DNA of 64,000 nucleotides. Origin: Kitasatospora sp. NBC_00458. GTDB taxonomy: Bacteria; Actinomycetota; Actinomycetes; Streptomycetales; Streptomycetaceae. A program made the position numbers and the translations under genes. Position 1 is the first letter of the stretch; every line of letters starts with the position of its first letter. The notes below the pieces were generated by a model. That model was not told where the DNA came from and made no database searches. It was given only the letters and a program-made list of their open reading frames with translations. The stretch lies in contig NZ_CP107904.1 of the NCBI RefSeq assembly GCF_036013975.1, positions 4,527,001 through 4,591,000 of the forward strand. The letters run 5' to 3'. Positions 8,836 through 52,138 of the stretch are shown piece after piece.

Positions 8836-10452
8836 TCAGTCCCGGGTCATGTCGACGAAGCGGGAGTAGTGGCCCTGGAAGGCCACCGTGATGGTGGCGG
8901 TGGGGCCGTTTCGGTGCTTGGCGACGATCAGGTCGGCCTCGCCGGCGCGCGGGGACTCCTTCTCGTAGGCGTCCTCGCGGTGGAGCAGGATGACCATGTC
9001 GGCGTCCTGCTCGATGGAGCCGGACTCACGCAGGTCGGAGACCATCGGCCGCTTGTCGGTGCGCTGTTCGGGACCACGGTTCAGCTGGGAGAGCGCGATC
9101 ACCGGGACCTCCAGCTCCTTGGCCAGCAGCTTCAGGTTTCGCGACATGTCGGAGACCTCCTGCTGGCGGTTCTCGGCCCGGCGGGAGCCTCCGGACTGCA
9201 TCAGCTGGAGGTAGTCGATGACGACCAGCTTGATGTCGTTGCGCTGCTTGAGCCGGCGGCACTTGGCGCGGATCTCCATCATCGACAGATTCGGCGAGTC
9301 GTCGATGAACAGCGGCGCCTCGCTGACGTCGGGCATCCGGCGGGCGACCCGGGTCCAGTCGTCGTCCGTCATGGAGCCGGAGCGCATGTGGTGCAGCGCC
9401 ACCCGGGCCTCGGCGGAGAGCAGGCGCATGGCGATCTCGTTGCGGCCCATTTCGAGCGAGAAGATCACGCTCGGCAGCTTGTGGTGGATCGAGCAGGCCC
9501 GGGCGAAGTCCAGCGCCAGGGTGGACTTTCCCATCGCGGGACGGGCCGCGATGACGATCATCTGGCCGGGGTGCAGGCCGTTGGTCAGGGCGTCGAAGTC
9601 GGCGAAGCCGGTCGGCACTCCGGACATCTGGCCGTTGCGGGAGCCGATCGACTCGATCTCGTCGAGGGCGCCCTCCATGATGTCGGCGAGCGGCGCGTAG
9701 TCCTCGTTGGTGCGCTGCTCGGTGACGGCGTAGATCTCCGCCTGGGCGGCGTTGACGATCTCGTCGACGTCGCCCTCGGCGGCGTACCCCATGCCGGCGA
9801 TCCGGGTACCGGCCTCGACCAGCCGGCGCAGCACCGCGCGCTCGTGGACGATCTCGGCGTAGTACTCGGCGTTGGCGGCGGTCGGGACGGAGTTGACCAG
9901 GGTGTGCAGGTAGCCGGGGCCGCCGACCCGCTGGAGCTCGCCGCGCTTGGTGAGCTCCCCGGCCACGGTGATCGGGTCGGCCGGCTCGCCGCGGGCGTAG
10001 AGGTCGAGGATCGCGCCGTGGATCAGCTCGTGCGCGGGCCGGTAGTAGTCGGCCGGCTTGAGCACCTCGACCACGTCGGCGATGGCGTCCTTGGAGAGCA
10101 GCATGCCGCCGAGGACGGACTGCTCGGCGGCGAGGTCCTGCGGGGGGACCCGCTCGAAGCCGTCGAGGCCGCCCTCGGCACGCTCGTCCTCGCCGTTCTG
10201 CCGCCGCTTGCCGCCGTCGCGCTGGAAGCCGCCGGAACCCCCGGACCCGCCGCCCTTGCCGCCCTTCTGGAAGCCGCCGGAGCCGCCCTGGCCCTGTCCG
10301 TCGCCGCGCGCGCGGGAGACCGGCAGCCGGTCCCCGGGGCCGTCCGGGAACGGGGCGTCGGCGAAGGCGCCGACGGGGAAGGGATCGTCGGCGGTCTGCC
10401 AGTCGTCCTCCGGCGGCGGGGCGTCGTGGTCGTCGTACTGGGGGCCGGTCAC
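8836..10452 (-). CDS. dnaB: Replicative DNA helicase
   Basis: 538-aa DnaB, the hexameric ring helicase that unwinds DNA at the fork. The N-terminal domain starts at VPPQDLAAEQSVLGGMLLS. The RecA-like domain has the Walker A AARPAMGKSTLALDFARA, Walker B VVIDYLQLM, and the conserved LSQLNRGPEQRTDKRP and IEQDADMVILLHR. No intein interrupts the motifs. About 100 extra N-terminal residues precede the conserved part and are rich in Gly, Asp, Pro and Lys (KGGKGGGSGGSGGF-like). GTG at 10452 is chosen for its GGGGAA ribosome-binding site. The gene is separated from the rpsF-ssb-rpsR-rplI operon by a MATE gene, and its leader holds a DnaA-box-like cluster. Confidence 0.95.
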   Translation of the reverse strand: MTGPQYDDHDAPPPEDDWQTADDPFPVGAFADAPFPDGPGDRLPVSRARGDGQGQGGSGGFQKGGKGGGSGGSGGFQRDGGKRRQNGEDERAEGGLDGFERVPPQDLAAEQSVLGGMLLSKDAIADVVEVLKPADYYRPAHELIHGAILDLYARGEPADPITVAGELTKRGELQRVGGPGYLHTLVNSVPTAANAEYYAEIVHERAVLRRLVEAGTRIAGMGYAAEGDVDEIVNAAQAEIYAVTEQRTNEDYAPLADIMEGALDEIESIGSRNGQMSGVPTGFADFDALTNGLHPGQMIVIAARPAMGKSTLALDFARACSIHHKLPSVIFSLEMGRNEIAMRLLSAEARVALHHMRSGSMTDDDWTRVARRMPDVSEAPLFIDDSPNLSMMEIRAKCRRLKQRNDIKLVVIDYLQLMQSGGSRRAENRQQEVSDMSRNLKLLAKELEVPVIALSQLNRGPEQRTDKRPMVSDLRESGSIEQDADMVILLHREDAYEKESPRAGEADLIVAKHRNGPTATITVAFQGHYSRFVDMTRD

Positions 10453-10639
10453 GCGTGTTCCCCGATCAGCGAGTGGTGCGAGTTGGAGCGGTCCTTGCCG
10501 GTGGCCGGCTGCGGCGGAGCCCGGTTTCCGCGCCACCGCATTTCTACGCCACCGCACCGACAAATCGGACGCCGGAGCGGGTGGGAGTGTCGGGCGGAGG
10601 GCCCACGCTAAGGCGCCGGGAGCCCTTCAGCCAAGGCGG
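10453..10639. other. dnaB leader, upstream part of the dnaB/MATE divergent region
   Basis: The whole dnaB-MATE intergenic stretch is 464 bp. This part holds the dnaB ribosome-binding site and presumably its promoter. No small gene is supported. Confidence 0.4.
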
Positions 10640-10728
10640 TTATCCACAGGGGGTGTGGACGAGCGGCCCACGACTGTGGAGAAGTGCCGCAAACCTGTGG
10701 ACGCCCCTGTGGAAAGCCCTGTGGATAA
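10640..10728. promoter_or_regulatory. Cluster of DnaA-box-like 9-mers upstream of dnaB
   Basis: Six DnaA-box-like words lie in 89 bp. They are TTATCCACA at 10640-10648 (plus); TCGTCCACA read on the minus strand at 10654-10662; TGTGGAGAA at 10675; TGTGGACGC at 10696; TGTGGAAAG at 10708; and a perfect TTATCCACA on the minus strand at 10720-10728. The outer two are perfect and convergent. Each TGTGGA core is visible directly; DnaA binding is inferred. The location suits regulation of dnaB or titration of DnaA about 40 kb from oriC. Confidence 0.65.
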
Positions 10729-10916
10729 CCAGACCATCGATCCACCGTCAACCCGCTGACCTGCGATTCCCCCGTCCCGGGGCTGTGCATGAGAAATTCT
10801 TCACACACAGCCGGGTGGCGGTGGACACAGACGCGGACGCCCCGGTCGCTCACACTTCCGAGTAAGTGATGAATACCCCTGGCACCTCTTACCTGTGGAT
10901 GAGTAGCCTTGACCCC

Positions 10917-48024: not shown

Positions 48025-48127
48025 TGCAGGACTTGTCTGGTTTGTTCTTCGGTAACGGACCACGATCCACAGATTCTTGATCCACCACCCCTGCTGGAGC
48101 CGCGGGGAACCGAGAAAGCGTGCACCA

Positions 48128-50002
48128 GTGGCTGATGTCAACAGCGACCTCGTCCCTGTCTGGGCAAGGGTCGTCGAGCGGCTGGTCGGCGACCCGGACG
48201 TCGGGGAGATGGACAAGCAGTGGGTGCAGCGCACCCAGCCGATGTGGATGATGCACGACACCGCCCTGCTGGCGACCCCCAACGAGCGGGCCAAGCAGGT
48301 GCTGGAGGGCCGGCTGCTGCCGCAGCTGACCGAGGCCCTCAGCCGCGAGCTCAGCCGTCCGGTCCGGATCGCCGTGATGGTCGACGCCAACGCCGTGGCC
48401 CCCGGCCCCGCGCCGGCGGAGCCGCCGGCCGCCGAGCCCTACCCCCCGCAGAGCGGCGGTCCCGACTACGGGCAGCCCGCGTACGAGCGCCGCTACGAGT
48501 CGGAGCACGGCCGCGACCAGTACGGCCACGACCAGTACGGCGGCGGCTACCCCGAGCACCCGGCGCCCCAGTACGGCGGAGCGGGCGGGTACGGCCCGCC
48601 CGACCGGCAGCCGCCCTGGGACGAGGGCCCGGGCCGCTCCGGCTACGCCGAGCCGTCCCCGGAGTACCGCGACGAGTACCGGGACGACTACCGCGACCAG
48701 GACGCCCAGCGCCCCGCGCCCCGGCCCGCCGTCCCCGGCCCGCCCTCGACCACGCAGGGCGACCTCTTCGGCGGTGCGTACGGCCCCGGCCCCGGGGAGC
48801 ACCCGCGGGCCGGCTCCGGGCGCCGCGCCCCGGCGGCCAGGCCGCCGGCCGGGCGGTCCGCGGAGAAGGCCCCGGCCGAGCGCGAGCGCGCCACCGACCG
48901 GCCGGCGGTGCCCGGGGTCCCGGCCCCGCCCGGCGCTCCCCCGGCCGGCGGCTCCCGCAAGGACGAGCCGGCCGCCCGGCTGAACCCCAAGTACCTCTTC
49001 GACACCTTCGTCATCGGCGCGAGCAACCGGTTCGCGCACGCGGCCGCGGTGGCCGTCGCCGAGGCCCCGGCCAAGGCGTACAACCCGCTCTTCATCTACG
49101 GCGAGTCCGGGCTGGGCAAGACCCACCTGCTGCACGCCATCGGGCACTACTCGCGCAGCCTCTTCCCGGGCACCCGGGTGCGCTACGTGTCCTCGGAGGA
49201 GTTCACCAACGAGTTCATCAACTCGATCCGGGACGGCAAGGCGGACACCTTCCGCAAGCGGTACCGGGACATGGACATTCTGCTCGTGGACGACGTGCAG
49301 TTCCTGGCGAGCAAGGAGTCCACGCAGGAGGAGTTCTTCCACACCTTCAACACCCTGCACAACGCCAACAAGCAGATCGTCCTCTCCTCCGACCGGCCGC
49401 CCAAGCTGCTGACCACGCTGGAGGACCGGCTGCGCAACCGCTTCGAGTGGGGACTGATCACCGACGTCACCCCGCCGGAGCTGGAGACCCGGATCGCGAT
49501 CCTGCGCAAGAAGGCGATCCAGGAGCAACTGAACGCCCCCGCCGACGTGCTGGAGTTCATCGCGTCCCGGATCACCCGGAACATCCGGGAGTTGGAGGGC
49601 GCGCTGATCCGGGTCACCGCCTTCGCCAACCTCAACCGGGCGCCGGTGGACCTGGAGTTGGCCGGCATCGTCCTCAAGGACCTGATCCCGGGCGGCGACG
49701 AGGACGCGGGGCCGGAGATCACGGCGCAGGTCATCATGCAGCAGACCGCCGCCTACTTCGGGCTGGGCGTGGACGACCTCTGCGGATCCTCGCGCAGCCG
49801 AGTACTGGTGACGGCCCGTCAGATCGCGATGTACCTCTGCCGGGAGCTCACCGACCTCTCGCTGCCGAAGATCGGCGCGCAGTTCGGCGGCCGGGACCAC
49901 ACCACGGTGATGCACGCCGACCGCAAGATCCGGTCGCTGATGGCCGAGCGGCGCTCGATCTACAACCAGGTCACCGAACTCACCAACCGCATCAAGAGCT
50001 AG
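48128..50002 (+). CDS. dnaA: Chromosomal replication initiator protein DnaA
   Basis: 624-aa DnaA. Domain I (1-90) mediates self-association and partner binding. Domain II (about 90-285) is unusually long and rich in Gly, Pro, Tyr and Arg, as in streptomycetes. Domain III is AAA+ with Walker [10 protein letters not shown] (about 325), Walker [12 protein letters not shown] and the initiator-specific region. Domain IV has the DnaA-box-binding [15 protein letters not shown] near 590. GTG 48128 begins [11 protein letters not shown]; the ribosome-binding site is weak. It binds the oriC array just downstream. Confidence 0.97.
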
Positions 50003-50095
50003 CCGGGACCGCACGGACGGCCCCGTGGGCGGCCGTCCGGCCCGCCCGGCGGGACGGGCGCCGGTCCGTGCGCGGGCCGGCCGCCGGTGGCCGGA

Positions 50096-50127
50096 AAAGG
50101 GCGTCAGGAGCGATCCTGACGCCCTTT
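50096..50127 (+). terminator. dnaA terminator
   Basis: Perfect 14-bp stem capped by a GCGA (GNRA) tetraloop, with AAA/TTT at the base. It lies between dnaA and the first oriC box and should shield oriC from dnaA transcription. Confidence 0.8.
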
Positions 50128-50130
50128 CGC

Positions 50131-50824
50131 ATGTCCACAGGTGTGCGGAGCCGCCCGGCGGGGCATGGATCCCTGCGACGGACGCCCCGCCAGTCCACAG
50201 CCCGCGCCGAACATCTGACCAGGGATTCGAACTCCCCGGGTGCGCAGGGCCGGAATCCACAGGCCGGGCCGGTTCACCGTCGTCCACAGGCCACCGGGCC
50301 GTGAGTTATCCAGAATTCCTCCACAGGGCCGTCGCCGCTACGCTCTTCGGCGCAGGTCAGGTGCCTGTGGACTTGTGCACAACCGTTATCCACAGGCTGT
50401 GGACAATTGGCGGCCCGTCAGTGGGCCATCCGGGTTGTCCACCGGTTGTCCCCAGGAGGCCCCCGGTTATCCCCAGGTTGTCCACAGCTGCGTCCACAGT
50501 TCGACAACCTTCCGCCACCGTTCATGCCCAGGTGTGAAAGGCGTCACGAAATGTTGACCGGCGCCCGTGGATAACCGGGCCCGGATCTGGGGACAGCGCT
50601 GGGGATAACCTGTGGATACTCAGCGTGCCCTGTGGGTAACGCTCCGCCGTCCACAGCCGGCCCTGCTCGTCCACAGCCCCCGTCCACATGTCCTGTGGAC
50701 AAAAAACCGGGCCTGACCTGCGCAAACAGGGTTATCCACGGTTTCCACAGGCCCTACTACTACCACTACACCTATAGACCGTTCGATGAGCTCAAAAGCG
50801 GGTGGGGCCGAAATCTGTGGACAA
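50131..50824. other. oriC: Chromosomal replication origin oriC
   Basis: The dnaA-dnaN spacer holds about 25 DnaA-box-like 9-mers. Perfect TTGTCCACA occurs at 50398-50406 (minus), 50478-50486 (plus), 50694-50702 (minus) and 50816-50824 (minus); TTATCCACA at 50386-50394 (plus). Near matches include plus-strand words at 50131, 50191, 50253, 50280, 50306, 50317, 50435, 50446, 50467, 50490, 50647, 50667, 50680, 50732 and 50741, and minus-strand words at 50366, 50566, 50600, 50611 and 50631. This is the streptomycete type of origin. No classical AT-rich 13-mers are present. Confidence 0.95.
50732..50777. other. Candidate origin unwinding element (DnaA boxes plus DnaA-trios)
   Basis: Two abutting boxes, TTATCCACG (50732-50740) and GTTTCCACA (50741-50749), are followed by the spacer GGCC and then by CTA-CTA-CTA-CCA-CTA-CAC-CTA (50754-50774). 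On the other strand, read 3' to 5', this is GAT-GAT-GAT-GGT-GAT-GTG-GAT, close to the DnaA-trio pattern used for strand opening in Bacillus. This is also the least GC-rich stretch of oriC. Function is inferred. Confidence 0.65.
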
Positions 50825-51007
50825 GCGCCCACCGACATCCGTTCGACTTGCTTCCGCCCGTCTGCCCCGTCTGTCGGTGGAGTACGTCAGACTGTCCTCG
50901 GCGACTGGACACGGAGCGGCAGAGCTCGGCGGCCAGGCGGACCGACGACCAAGATCAGAAGAACCAGACGTGCGAGCGGGAGCGCTCGATCCAGGAGGCG
51001 GTTACCG

Positions 51008-52138
51008 GTGAAGTTCCGGGTGGAGCGTGACGTCCTCGCGGAGGCGGTGGCCTGGGCTGCCCGCAGCCTCCCGGCACGGCCGCCGGTGCCGGTGCTGGCG
51101 GGCCTGCTGCTGACGGCACAGGACGGCAGCCTGGCCCTGTCCGGCTTCGACTACGAGGTCTCGGCCCGGGTCGAGCTGGAGGCCGACATCGAGGAGGCCG
51201 GCACCGTGCTGGTCTCCGGCCGGCTGCTGAACGACATCTCGCGGAACCTTCCCAACAGGCCTGTGGAGATCTCCACCGACGGCCAGCGGGTCAGCGTGGT
51301 CTGCGGCAGCTCGCGGTTCACCCTCCCCACCCTCCCGGTGGACGAGTACCCCGCGCTGCCCCAGATGCCGACCGCGACCGGCACCGTCTCGGGCGACGTC
51401 TTCGCCTCCGCGGTCAGCCAGGCCGCCGTGGCCGCCGGCCGCGACGACACCCTCCCGGTGCTCACCGGTGTGCGGGTCGAGATCGAGGGCGACCGGATCA
51501 CCCTGGCCGCCACCGACCGCTACCGCTTCGCCGTCCGCGAGCTGCTGTGGAAGCCCGAGCAGGCCGACATCTCCGCGGTCGCCCTGGTGCCCGCCAAGAC
51601 GCTCCAGGACATCGCCAAGTCGCTGGGCAGCGGCGACACCGTCTCGATCGCGCTCTCCTCGGGCGGCGCCGGCGAGGGCCTGATCGGCTTCGAGGGTGCC
51701 GGCCGGCGGACCACGACCCGCCTGCTGGAGGGCGAGTTCCCGAAGTACCGCAGCCTCTTCCCCACCGAGTTCAACGCGATCGCGGCGATCCAGACGCAGC
51801 CGTTCCTGGAGGCGCTCAAGCGCGTCTCGCTGGTCGCCGAGCGCAACACCCCGGTGCGGCTCAACTTCGAGGAGGGCGTGCTCACCCTGGAGGCCGGTTC
51901 CGGCGACGACGCCCAGGCCACCGAGCGCATCGACGCCTCGCTGGAGGGCGACGCCATCTCGATCGCCTTCAACCCGGGCTACCTGGAGGAGGGCCTCAAG
52001 GCCATCGACTCCGCCTACGCCCAGCTGAGCTTCACCACGCCCACCAAGCCCGCGCTGCTCAGCGGCAAGGCCTCGGTGGACGCGGAGGCCGACGAGGCGT
52101 ACCAGTACCTGATCATGCCGGTCCGCCTCTCCGGCTGA
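51008..52138 (+). CDS. dnaN: DNA polymerase III beta subunit (sliding clamp)
   Basis: 376-aa clamp of three similar domains that tethers polymerase and repair proteins to DNA. It begins VKFRVERDVLAEAVAWAARS. Conserved stretches are TLPVLTGVRVEIEGDRITLAATDRYRFA (two parts) and the C-terminal YQYLIMPVRLSG, which forms the partner-binding pocket. GTG 51008 is fixed by CAGGAGG. It is the first gene after oriC. Confidence 0.97.
   Translation: MKFRVERDVLAEAVAWAARSLPARPPVPVLAGLLLTAQDGSLALSGFDYEVSARVELEADIEEAGTVLVSGRLLNDISRNLPNRPVEISTDGQRVSVVCGSSRFTLPTLPVDEYPALPQMPTATGTVSGDVFASAVSQAAVAAGRDDTLPVLTGVRVEIEGDRITLAATDRYRFAVRELLWKPEQADISAVALVPAKTLQDIAKSLGSGDTVSIALSSGGAGEGLIGFEGAGRRTTTRLLEGEFPKYRSLFPTEFNAIAAIQTQPFLEALKRVSLVAERNTPVRLNFEEGVLTLEAGSGDDAQATERIDASLEGDAISIAFNPGYLEEGLKAIDSAYAQLSFTTPTKPALLSGKASVDAEADEAYQYLIMPVRLSG

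Follow-up and report, generated by a model that had tools for sequence, protein, structure and literature searches.

The window, that is, the whole 64-kb stretch of DNA that was analysed, comes from an 8.01-Mb genome consisting of a single contig. It carries a dnaA open frame, an array of DnaA boxes that marks oriC, and a downstream gene that we take, from its own sequence, to be dnaN. The features on which the following argument depends are these:

10756..10765, plus strand: third exact copy of the companion element CTGACCTGCG, lying in the second DnaA-box cluster, the one upstream of dnaB
48077..50002, plus strand: dnaA, an open frame of 641 amino acids
near 49193-49333, plus strand: within dnaA, E, N, I, I, R and E at the spacing of B. 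subtilis residues 183, 187, 190, 193, 202 and 228
about 50131..50824, unstranded: oriC DnaA-box array, from a search for TTNTCCACA with at most one mismatch
50351..50360, minus strand: companion element in inverted orientation, an exact copy on the left side of the oriC box array
50713..50722, plus strand: companion element CTGACCTGCG, starting 19 bp before the start of box 1 and judged by the conservation of CTGACCTG
50732..50740, plus strand: DnaA box 1, TTATCCACG, read directly
50741..50749, plus strand: DnaA box 2, GTTTCCACA, abutting box 1, read directly and compared without regard to the trios
50750..50753, unstranded: GC-rich 4-bp spacer GGCC (G.92, G.87, C.91 and C 1.00 in 141 distinct sequences)
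50754..50762, minus strand: DnaA-trios 1-3, 3'-GAT-GAT-GAT-5'
50763..50768, minus strand: trios 4-5, 3'-GGT-GAT-5', relaxed, with mostly conserved outer bases and a free middle base
50769..50774, unstranded: triplets CAC and CTA, included in the count of the original prediction but lacking conservation as trios
51008..52138, plus strand: dnaN, with a GTG start and the N-terminus MKFRVERD

The plus strand reads CTA CTA CTA CCA CTA CAC CTA from 50754 to 50774, the first five triplets all being CNA; the two abutting boxes, the GGCC and the seven triplets including five CTA that had been described at this site are found base for base at 50732-50774. The predicted distance of about 230 bp to dnaN is likewise accurate, with 233 bp measured to the GTG at 51008. 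An exact CTACTACTA occurs once in the 64 kb, at 50754-50762. Allowing one mismatch yields six matches where 0.5 would be expected, three of the six being overlapping registers of the array itself.

Conservation was assessed in 151 sequences, 141 of them distinct, made up of the window and 150 relatives (70 genomes of the genus and 80 named Streptomycetaceae contigs, two sets that overlap and include the window's own genome). A strict regular expression with GG in the spacer matched 127 of the 151, and the other 24 carried the element with one to five mismatches. Because these 24 were missed, conservation was recounted with the triplets left unconstrained, each sequence being anchored on its best-scoring pair of abutting boxes and ties going to the pair nearer dnaN. 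By this trio-blind count the abutting pair is present in 151/151 sequences, three in-phase NTN triplets follow at a fixed offset in all 141 distinct origins, and an exact CTACTACTA follows in 138 of them, trio 1 lying 177-312 bp before dnaN. Every column of triplets 1-3 holds its C, T or A at.99-1.00. Triplet 4 keeps its C (.97) with a mixed middle base and an A at.58, triplet 5 keeps C (.99) and A (.92) around a middle T (.58) or C (.41), and from triplet 6 onward the trio pattern is gone, though some later columns are conserved too. The family thus has three fixed and two relaxed units, and of the proposed array of five trios in seven triplets the five CTA words are present, but only units 1-3 are fixed, 4-5 are relaxed and 6-7 are unconserved as trios.

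A wider search used the pattern TWTCCACANNNCCTACTACT, which covers box 2, the spacer and most of the three triplets. With at most one mismatch, and counted wherever in the genome it fell, it was found in 393 of 394 Streptomycetaceae genomes and in 17/17 genera, as a single match in nearly all and as two matches in 3; the one miss is a genome that is 71% complete (G174). The reversed pattern, as a control, gave 11 matches in 10 of the 394 genomes. The period-3 conservation after the boxes on which the idea had been staked in advance therefore holds in relatives. The association of boxes and triplets is real and not due to chance.

In Bacillus subtilis, according to published passages, DnaA separates the strands at a site composed of boxes, a spacer and triplets, the trios reading 5'-CTACTATTACTTCTACTA-3', and a passage of a review of that work calls an A at the middle trio base obligatory. 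According to passages of Pelliciari 2021 (PMC8287927), such a basal unwinding system (BUS) was predicted for 1755 (85%) of 2070 origins and was shown to function in vitro in six further species, no actinobacterium among them. The rule in these passages asks for three or more NAN triplets no farther than 16 bp from a box, with spacers peaking at 10-13 bp and 13 bp the commonest. Since a BUS has already been predicted in 85% of those 2070 origins, the original idea is less new than it was worded. For Streptomyces, a passage of PMC3411110 describes an oriC of 19 boxes in two groups, in which replication needs all boxes and the spacer. Statements on a streptomycete DnaA-trio are absent from the passages covered of PMC8287927, PMC10316083, PMC6669920, PMC6275241, PMC4285127, PMC3411110 and PMC10225481, and likewise from those of PMC10797057, PMC6727663, PMC5043019, PMC12500396, PMC2607554, PMC10201434 and PMC10721633; the literature passages covered also contain no map of streptomycete origin opening. 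The Kocuria rhizophila oriC, an actinobacterial dnaA-dnaN origin, is annotated with DnaA-trio motifs in a passage of PMC12500396, although this is an annotation of one strain, and the passage presents it without conservation or variant analysis.

Cryo-EM of the B. subtilis protein, in the passages of PMC10721633, shows N187, I190, I193, R202 and E228 contacting the trio, the guanine being held by R202 and E228 and the adenine by N187 and E183, with the third base not captured. We located these positions in the window DnaA through the motif TNEFINSI and the published numbering, and found identical residues at the right spacing for E183, N187, I190, I193, R202, K222 and E228. Across Streptomycetaceae, N, I, I, R and E at 187, 190, 193, 202 and 228 are present in 79/79 DnaA reads (80 loci).

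The window accordingly combines tandem boxes at 50732-50749, a 13-bp spacer (taken from the better-conserved box, box 1, to the first trio at 50754), three 3'-GAT-5' triplets on the strand and in the direction of the rule, conservation at the homologous place in relatives, and a DnaA whose initiator-specific motif carries the trio-binding residues. The proposal that order and orientation are those of the B. subtilis system is upheld by these features, among them the 13 bp that separate box 1 from the trios, and at the level of sequence the membership of the streptomycete element in this known kind is well supported. It resembles B. subtilis boxes 6/7 and their trios, as described in published passages, in its tandem boxes, short spacer, adjoining triplets of 3'-GAT-5' consensus and DnaA contact residues. 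The B. subtilis array, in contrast, has six units rather than three fixed and two relaxed. The streptomycete module carries CTGACCTG at a fixed upstream offset.

Beyond the family, the picture changes. A class-wide search with the DnaA C-terminal domain covered 197 genomes and gave 193 matches, from which 90 loci were taken (the 30 best matches and 60 picked for family spread), later enlarged to 94 by four loci from family f4. A scan that demanded CTA-type triplets found matches in only 15 of the 90, and a weighted scan was sparse too. Dropping the triplet requirement and using the abutting boxes as anchor revealed a relaxed array. With up to three mismatches, such a pair was present in 71/90 and then 75/94 loci, and 19 of the 94 had none. 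In the 71 loci, with triplets unconstrained, the first triplet has C at.85, T at.89 and A at.97. Units 2-5 then have A in phase 3 at.87,.87,.76 and.63 and C in phase 1 at.35,.70,.66 and.75, around a middle base that is mostly G (.35-.52) or T (.25-.39), and unit 6 is near background. The phase-3 A occupies 223 of 284 places in units 2-5; 5000 random-phase draws gave a mean of 92 (sd 12.5) and never more than 137, in a control that leaves relatedness in place. Most of the other actinomycete families sampled thus have a five-unit, period-3 array whose units conserve their outer bases but vary in the middle one (3'-GNT-5'). The window agrees with this wider pattern, each of its first five triplets being CNA.

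Read on the trio strand, at least three NNT units follow the tandem boxes in 57/75 loci, whereas at least three NAN units occur at the homologous site in only 18/75; either is found at less than 1% of random places. Families in which half or more of the loci are positive number 23/29 for NNT and 6/29 for NAN, and family-weighted frequencies agree with the class-wide counts. The window conforms to the Pelliciari 2021 sequence rule (box within 16 bp, at least three NAN, tandem boxes, 13-bp spacer), whereas the other families mostly fail NAN and keep NNT, and the failing loci are better called BUS-like than members of the BUS. As far as sequences can tell, the actinomycete pattern is the opposite of the published rule that the middle base must be A, and the comparison calls that rule into question. 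As a separate observation, dnaA and the element are unusually far apart in one locus of the class (L173), whose five perfect CTA triplets lie 1.3 kb downstream of the gene.

In DnaA itself, E183 and N187 are present in all class-wide reads, positions 190 and 193 are I, or V or L in a few, and position 202 is R, Q or K. Since N187 and E183 persist also in loci with a middle base other than A, a simple exchange of reader and base is unsupported, and neither residue 202 (R, Q, K) nor residue 196 (G, D, N, H) tracks the relaxed middle base by eye. E228 is lost within the class only in family f36. A second loss, in f50, lies outside the class, where a few other reads depart at 183 or 187. In f36 (L159, L171, L224, L225, L238, L239, L355) residue 228 is A or T, and in most loci a TTAACACCGTTAAG-like sequence, not CTA triplets, comes after the boxes. 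In f50 (L252, L253, L257, L265, L337), which belongs to another class, A228 is accompanied by TTA-rich triplets after the boxes, for example TTATTATTATTATTA in L265. The loci from other classes of the phylum were searched together with one from f36 (50 loci, 49 outside the class plus L355), and many have no abutting pair or only coding-like pairs; within f50, no pair was found in L250, L251, L273 and L336, which are without E228, nor in L255 and L262, which keep it.

Where E228 is missing and a box pair is present, trio 1 starts with T on the plus strand (3'-A) in 12/12 genomes (f36 and f50), against C (3'-G) in 150/157 with E228. The association has a Fisher p of 7e-14 with relatedness ignored, 79 of the 157 rows being from one family and 18 rows entered by hand. 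The table omits L335, L254, L256, L267, L275 and L353, which have no credible element, L191 and L212, which have no DnaA read, and every locus without a pair; in L354 two pairs tied and the triplet-followed one was chosen, an assignment that is not trio-blind. Six of the families with E228 include a non-G case. Put most safely, the expected change is seen in two families belonging to two classes, and 31 families that have E228 show 3'-G. Natural covariation of DnaA and trio of this sort could provide a means to test how an initiator reads single-stranded DNA.

The original prediction further held that streptomycete origins lack classical AT-rich 13-mers and that the element lies in the most AT-containing part of oriC. 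The first statement is correct for the window, where no 13-mer in 50003-51007 exceeds 9/13 A+T, so that a repeated AT-rich 13-mer unwinding element of the E. coli type is not present there. The second holds for duplex stability but not for composition. Nearest-neighbour sums rank the 30-mer that begins at 50754 as the least stable among the 977 windows between dnaA and dnaN, and the triplet region is also the least stable 20- and 50-mer. The five A+T-richest 13-mers (9/13), however, fall at three unrelated places, 50304-50306, 50694 and 50951. This last fact would suit an origin whose strands open elsewhere, either beside dnaA or within the box array, with the triplets guiding the DnaA filament afterwards or aiding helicase loading. 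The same could be said of the 23/141 distinct origins in which, over the 700 bp preceding dnaN, the least stable 30-mer lies away from the triplets, whereas in the other 118/141 it starts between -9 and +39 of trio 1. Such an arrangement would also fit Mycobacterium tuberculosis, an origin that according to published passages shares the dnaA-dnaN setting, many boxes and a lack of distinct A+T-rich repeats. Here PMC2607554, the one actinobacterial opening map among the passages covered, places permanganate-detected opening close to dnaA, in an A+T-rich stretch at -500 to -518 from dnaN. In two loci that we judged Mycobacterium-like by an A-run beside dnaA (L333, L334), dnaA is followed after 227-228 bp by the box pair and after 249-250 bp by the triplets, which puts the element at about -258 and -289 from dnaN, so that opening and element do not coincide there. 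Either Mycobacterium-like species open elsewhere, or the in-vitro permanganate map misses the BUS. An A-run of this kind after dnaA was not found on reading the window. At each size of 20, 30 and 50 bp, the five least stable non-overlapping windows all lie farther than 290 bp from dnaA, the weakest duplex is at the triplets, and the geometry of boxes, spacer and triplets is that at which B. subtilis DnaA separates strands; on balance we consider opening at another place in the streptomycete origin unlikely.

Alternatively, the conserved stretch might be a transcriptional control site, such as a DnaA-controlled promoter of dnaN, a role that would fit both its position 230 bp upstream of that gene and a conservation as high as that of regulatory sites. 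No sigma-70-type match was found in 50003-51010, which is a weak test for actinobacteria. More tellingly, a promoter predicts neither a period-3 array at a fixed 4-bp gap from two boxes, with three NNT units in half or more of the loci of 23/29 families, nor covariation with residue 228 of DnaA, and we therefore regard this role as very improbable. A little less credible still is that the triplets are left over beside functional boxes through shared ancestry and have no function of their own. Streptomycetaceae sequences are related, and identity among them is by itself weak evidence. Ancestry does not account, however, for columns 50754-50762 being fixed while those past triplet 5 vary, nor for a period that is kept in other families of differing sequence, where the phase-3 A stands far above its random-phase mean.

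We thus favor the reading in which the element is probably the site of origin DNA unwinding, a basal unwinding system. By analogy with B. subtilis biochemistry and given the conserved geometry, DnaA-ATP would bind the two abutting boxes, whose presence and conservation are observed, and would then pass over the GGCC spacer onto the minus strand. Successive DnaA subunits would take successive triplets, beginning with the first 3'-GAT-5', and the growing filament would draw bases from the duplex and so open oriC where its duplex is weakest, some 230 bp ahead of dnaN. Three of these triplets would be fixed in Streptomycetaceae, with two more relaxed towards 3'-GNN-5' and 3'-GNT-5'. If so, the element offers a base-precise and testable candidate opening site for a GC-rich streptomycete origin that has no 13-mers.

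The companion element upstream of the boxes has no resemblance to a DnaA box. Only three exact copies of CTGACCTGCG occur in the 64-kb window, all within DnaA-box arrays; with one mismatch allowed there is no clear enrichment (16 matches against 10.8 expected, a number that 8 of 100 shuffles reach). A stricter pair pattern was matched by 148 Streptomycetaceae sequences. In 147 of them CTGACCTG, with at most one mismatch, lies within 40 bp upstream of the boxes, at -19 in 141, and it is exact in the remaining 3 of the 151; within 40 bp before the boxes and at this tolerance it was not found in L084. In the 75 other actinomycete loci, again at one mismatch or fewer, it is present at -19 to -21 in 36, representing 14/29 families, and not in 39. 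The offsets are -20 (31 loci), -19 (3) and -21 (2), and all other offsets from -80 to 0 together give three scattered matches (81 offsets, 75 loci). The reversed word, as a control, matched once in the 75 loci. An exact inverted AGGTCAG occurs upstream in 99 of 148 Streptomycetaceae sequences; the 25 listed fall into two groups about one helical turn apart, 10 with positions from -379 to -381 and 15 with positions of -390 or -391. Another candidate word, CTGACCTGSNNAAAC, was rejected as specific to oriC, being present in 101/101 genomes, in several copies in most and in 4 in the window's own genome; its reversed-pattern control was near zero, but such a control is poor for a codon-like word.

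A second cluster of DnaA boxes (seven sites with at most one mismatch) lies in the window at 10640-10902, some 40 kb away from oriC. It is flanked by what we presume from sequence to be a dnaB-like gene (8836-10563, minus strand) on one side and a transporter-like gene on the other. This may, we assume, be the Streptomyces DnaA-box cluster reported in 2006. Of 30 Streptomycetaceae dnaB loci, one of them too short to judge, 29 have four or more boxes upstream of the gene, and in 24 an exact CTGACCTG stands near at least three boxes, each time with a box start 35 bp away. Its recurrence in inverted form within oriC and at a fixed 35 bp from a box beside dnaB suggests that CTGACCTG may bind an undescribed partner of DnaA, and we propose that it is a putative site for a protein working with DnaA. 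By title, no paper relating this motif to oriC was among the literature matches listed. A fixed element of this kind hints at a possible missing component of the orisome in antibiotic-producing bacteria.

Taken together with the arrays of other families, these patterns raise the possibility of a distinct actinomycete module. It would comprise five 3'-GNT-5' units with a free middle base, their guanine tied to E228, plus in many families a second protein-binding element, CTGACCTG, about 20 bp or two helical turns upstream of the boxes, perhaps for an undescribed DnaA partner. We advance this only tentatively and give it somewhat less than even chances. Finally, an additional dnaN-like match was seen in eleven genomes of the genus (12 matches with 45-60% identity, for example G029:C275 and G007:C2), and some of these extra copies may be located on plasmids.
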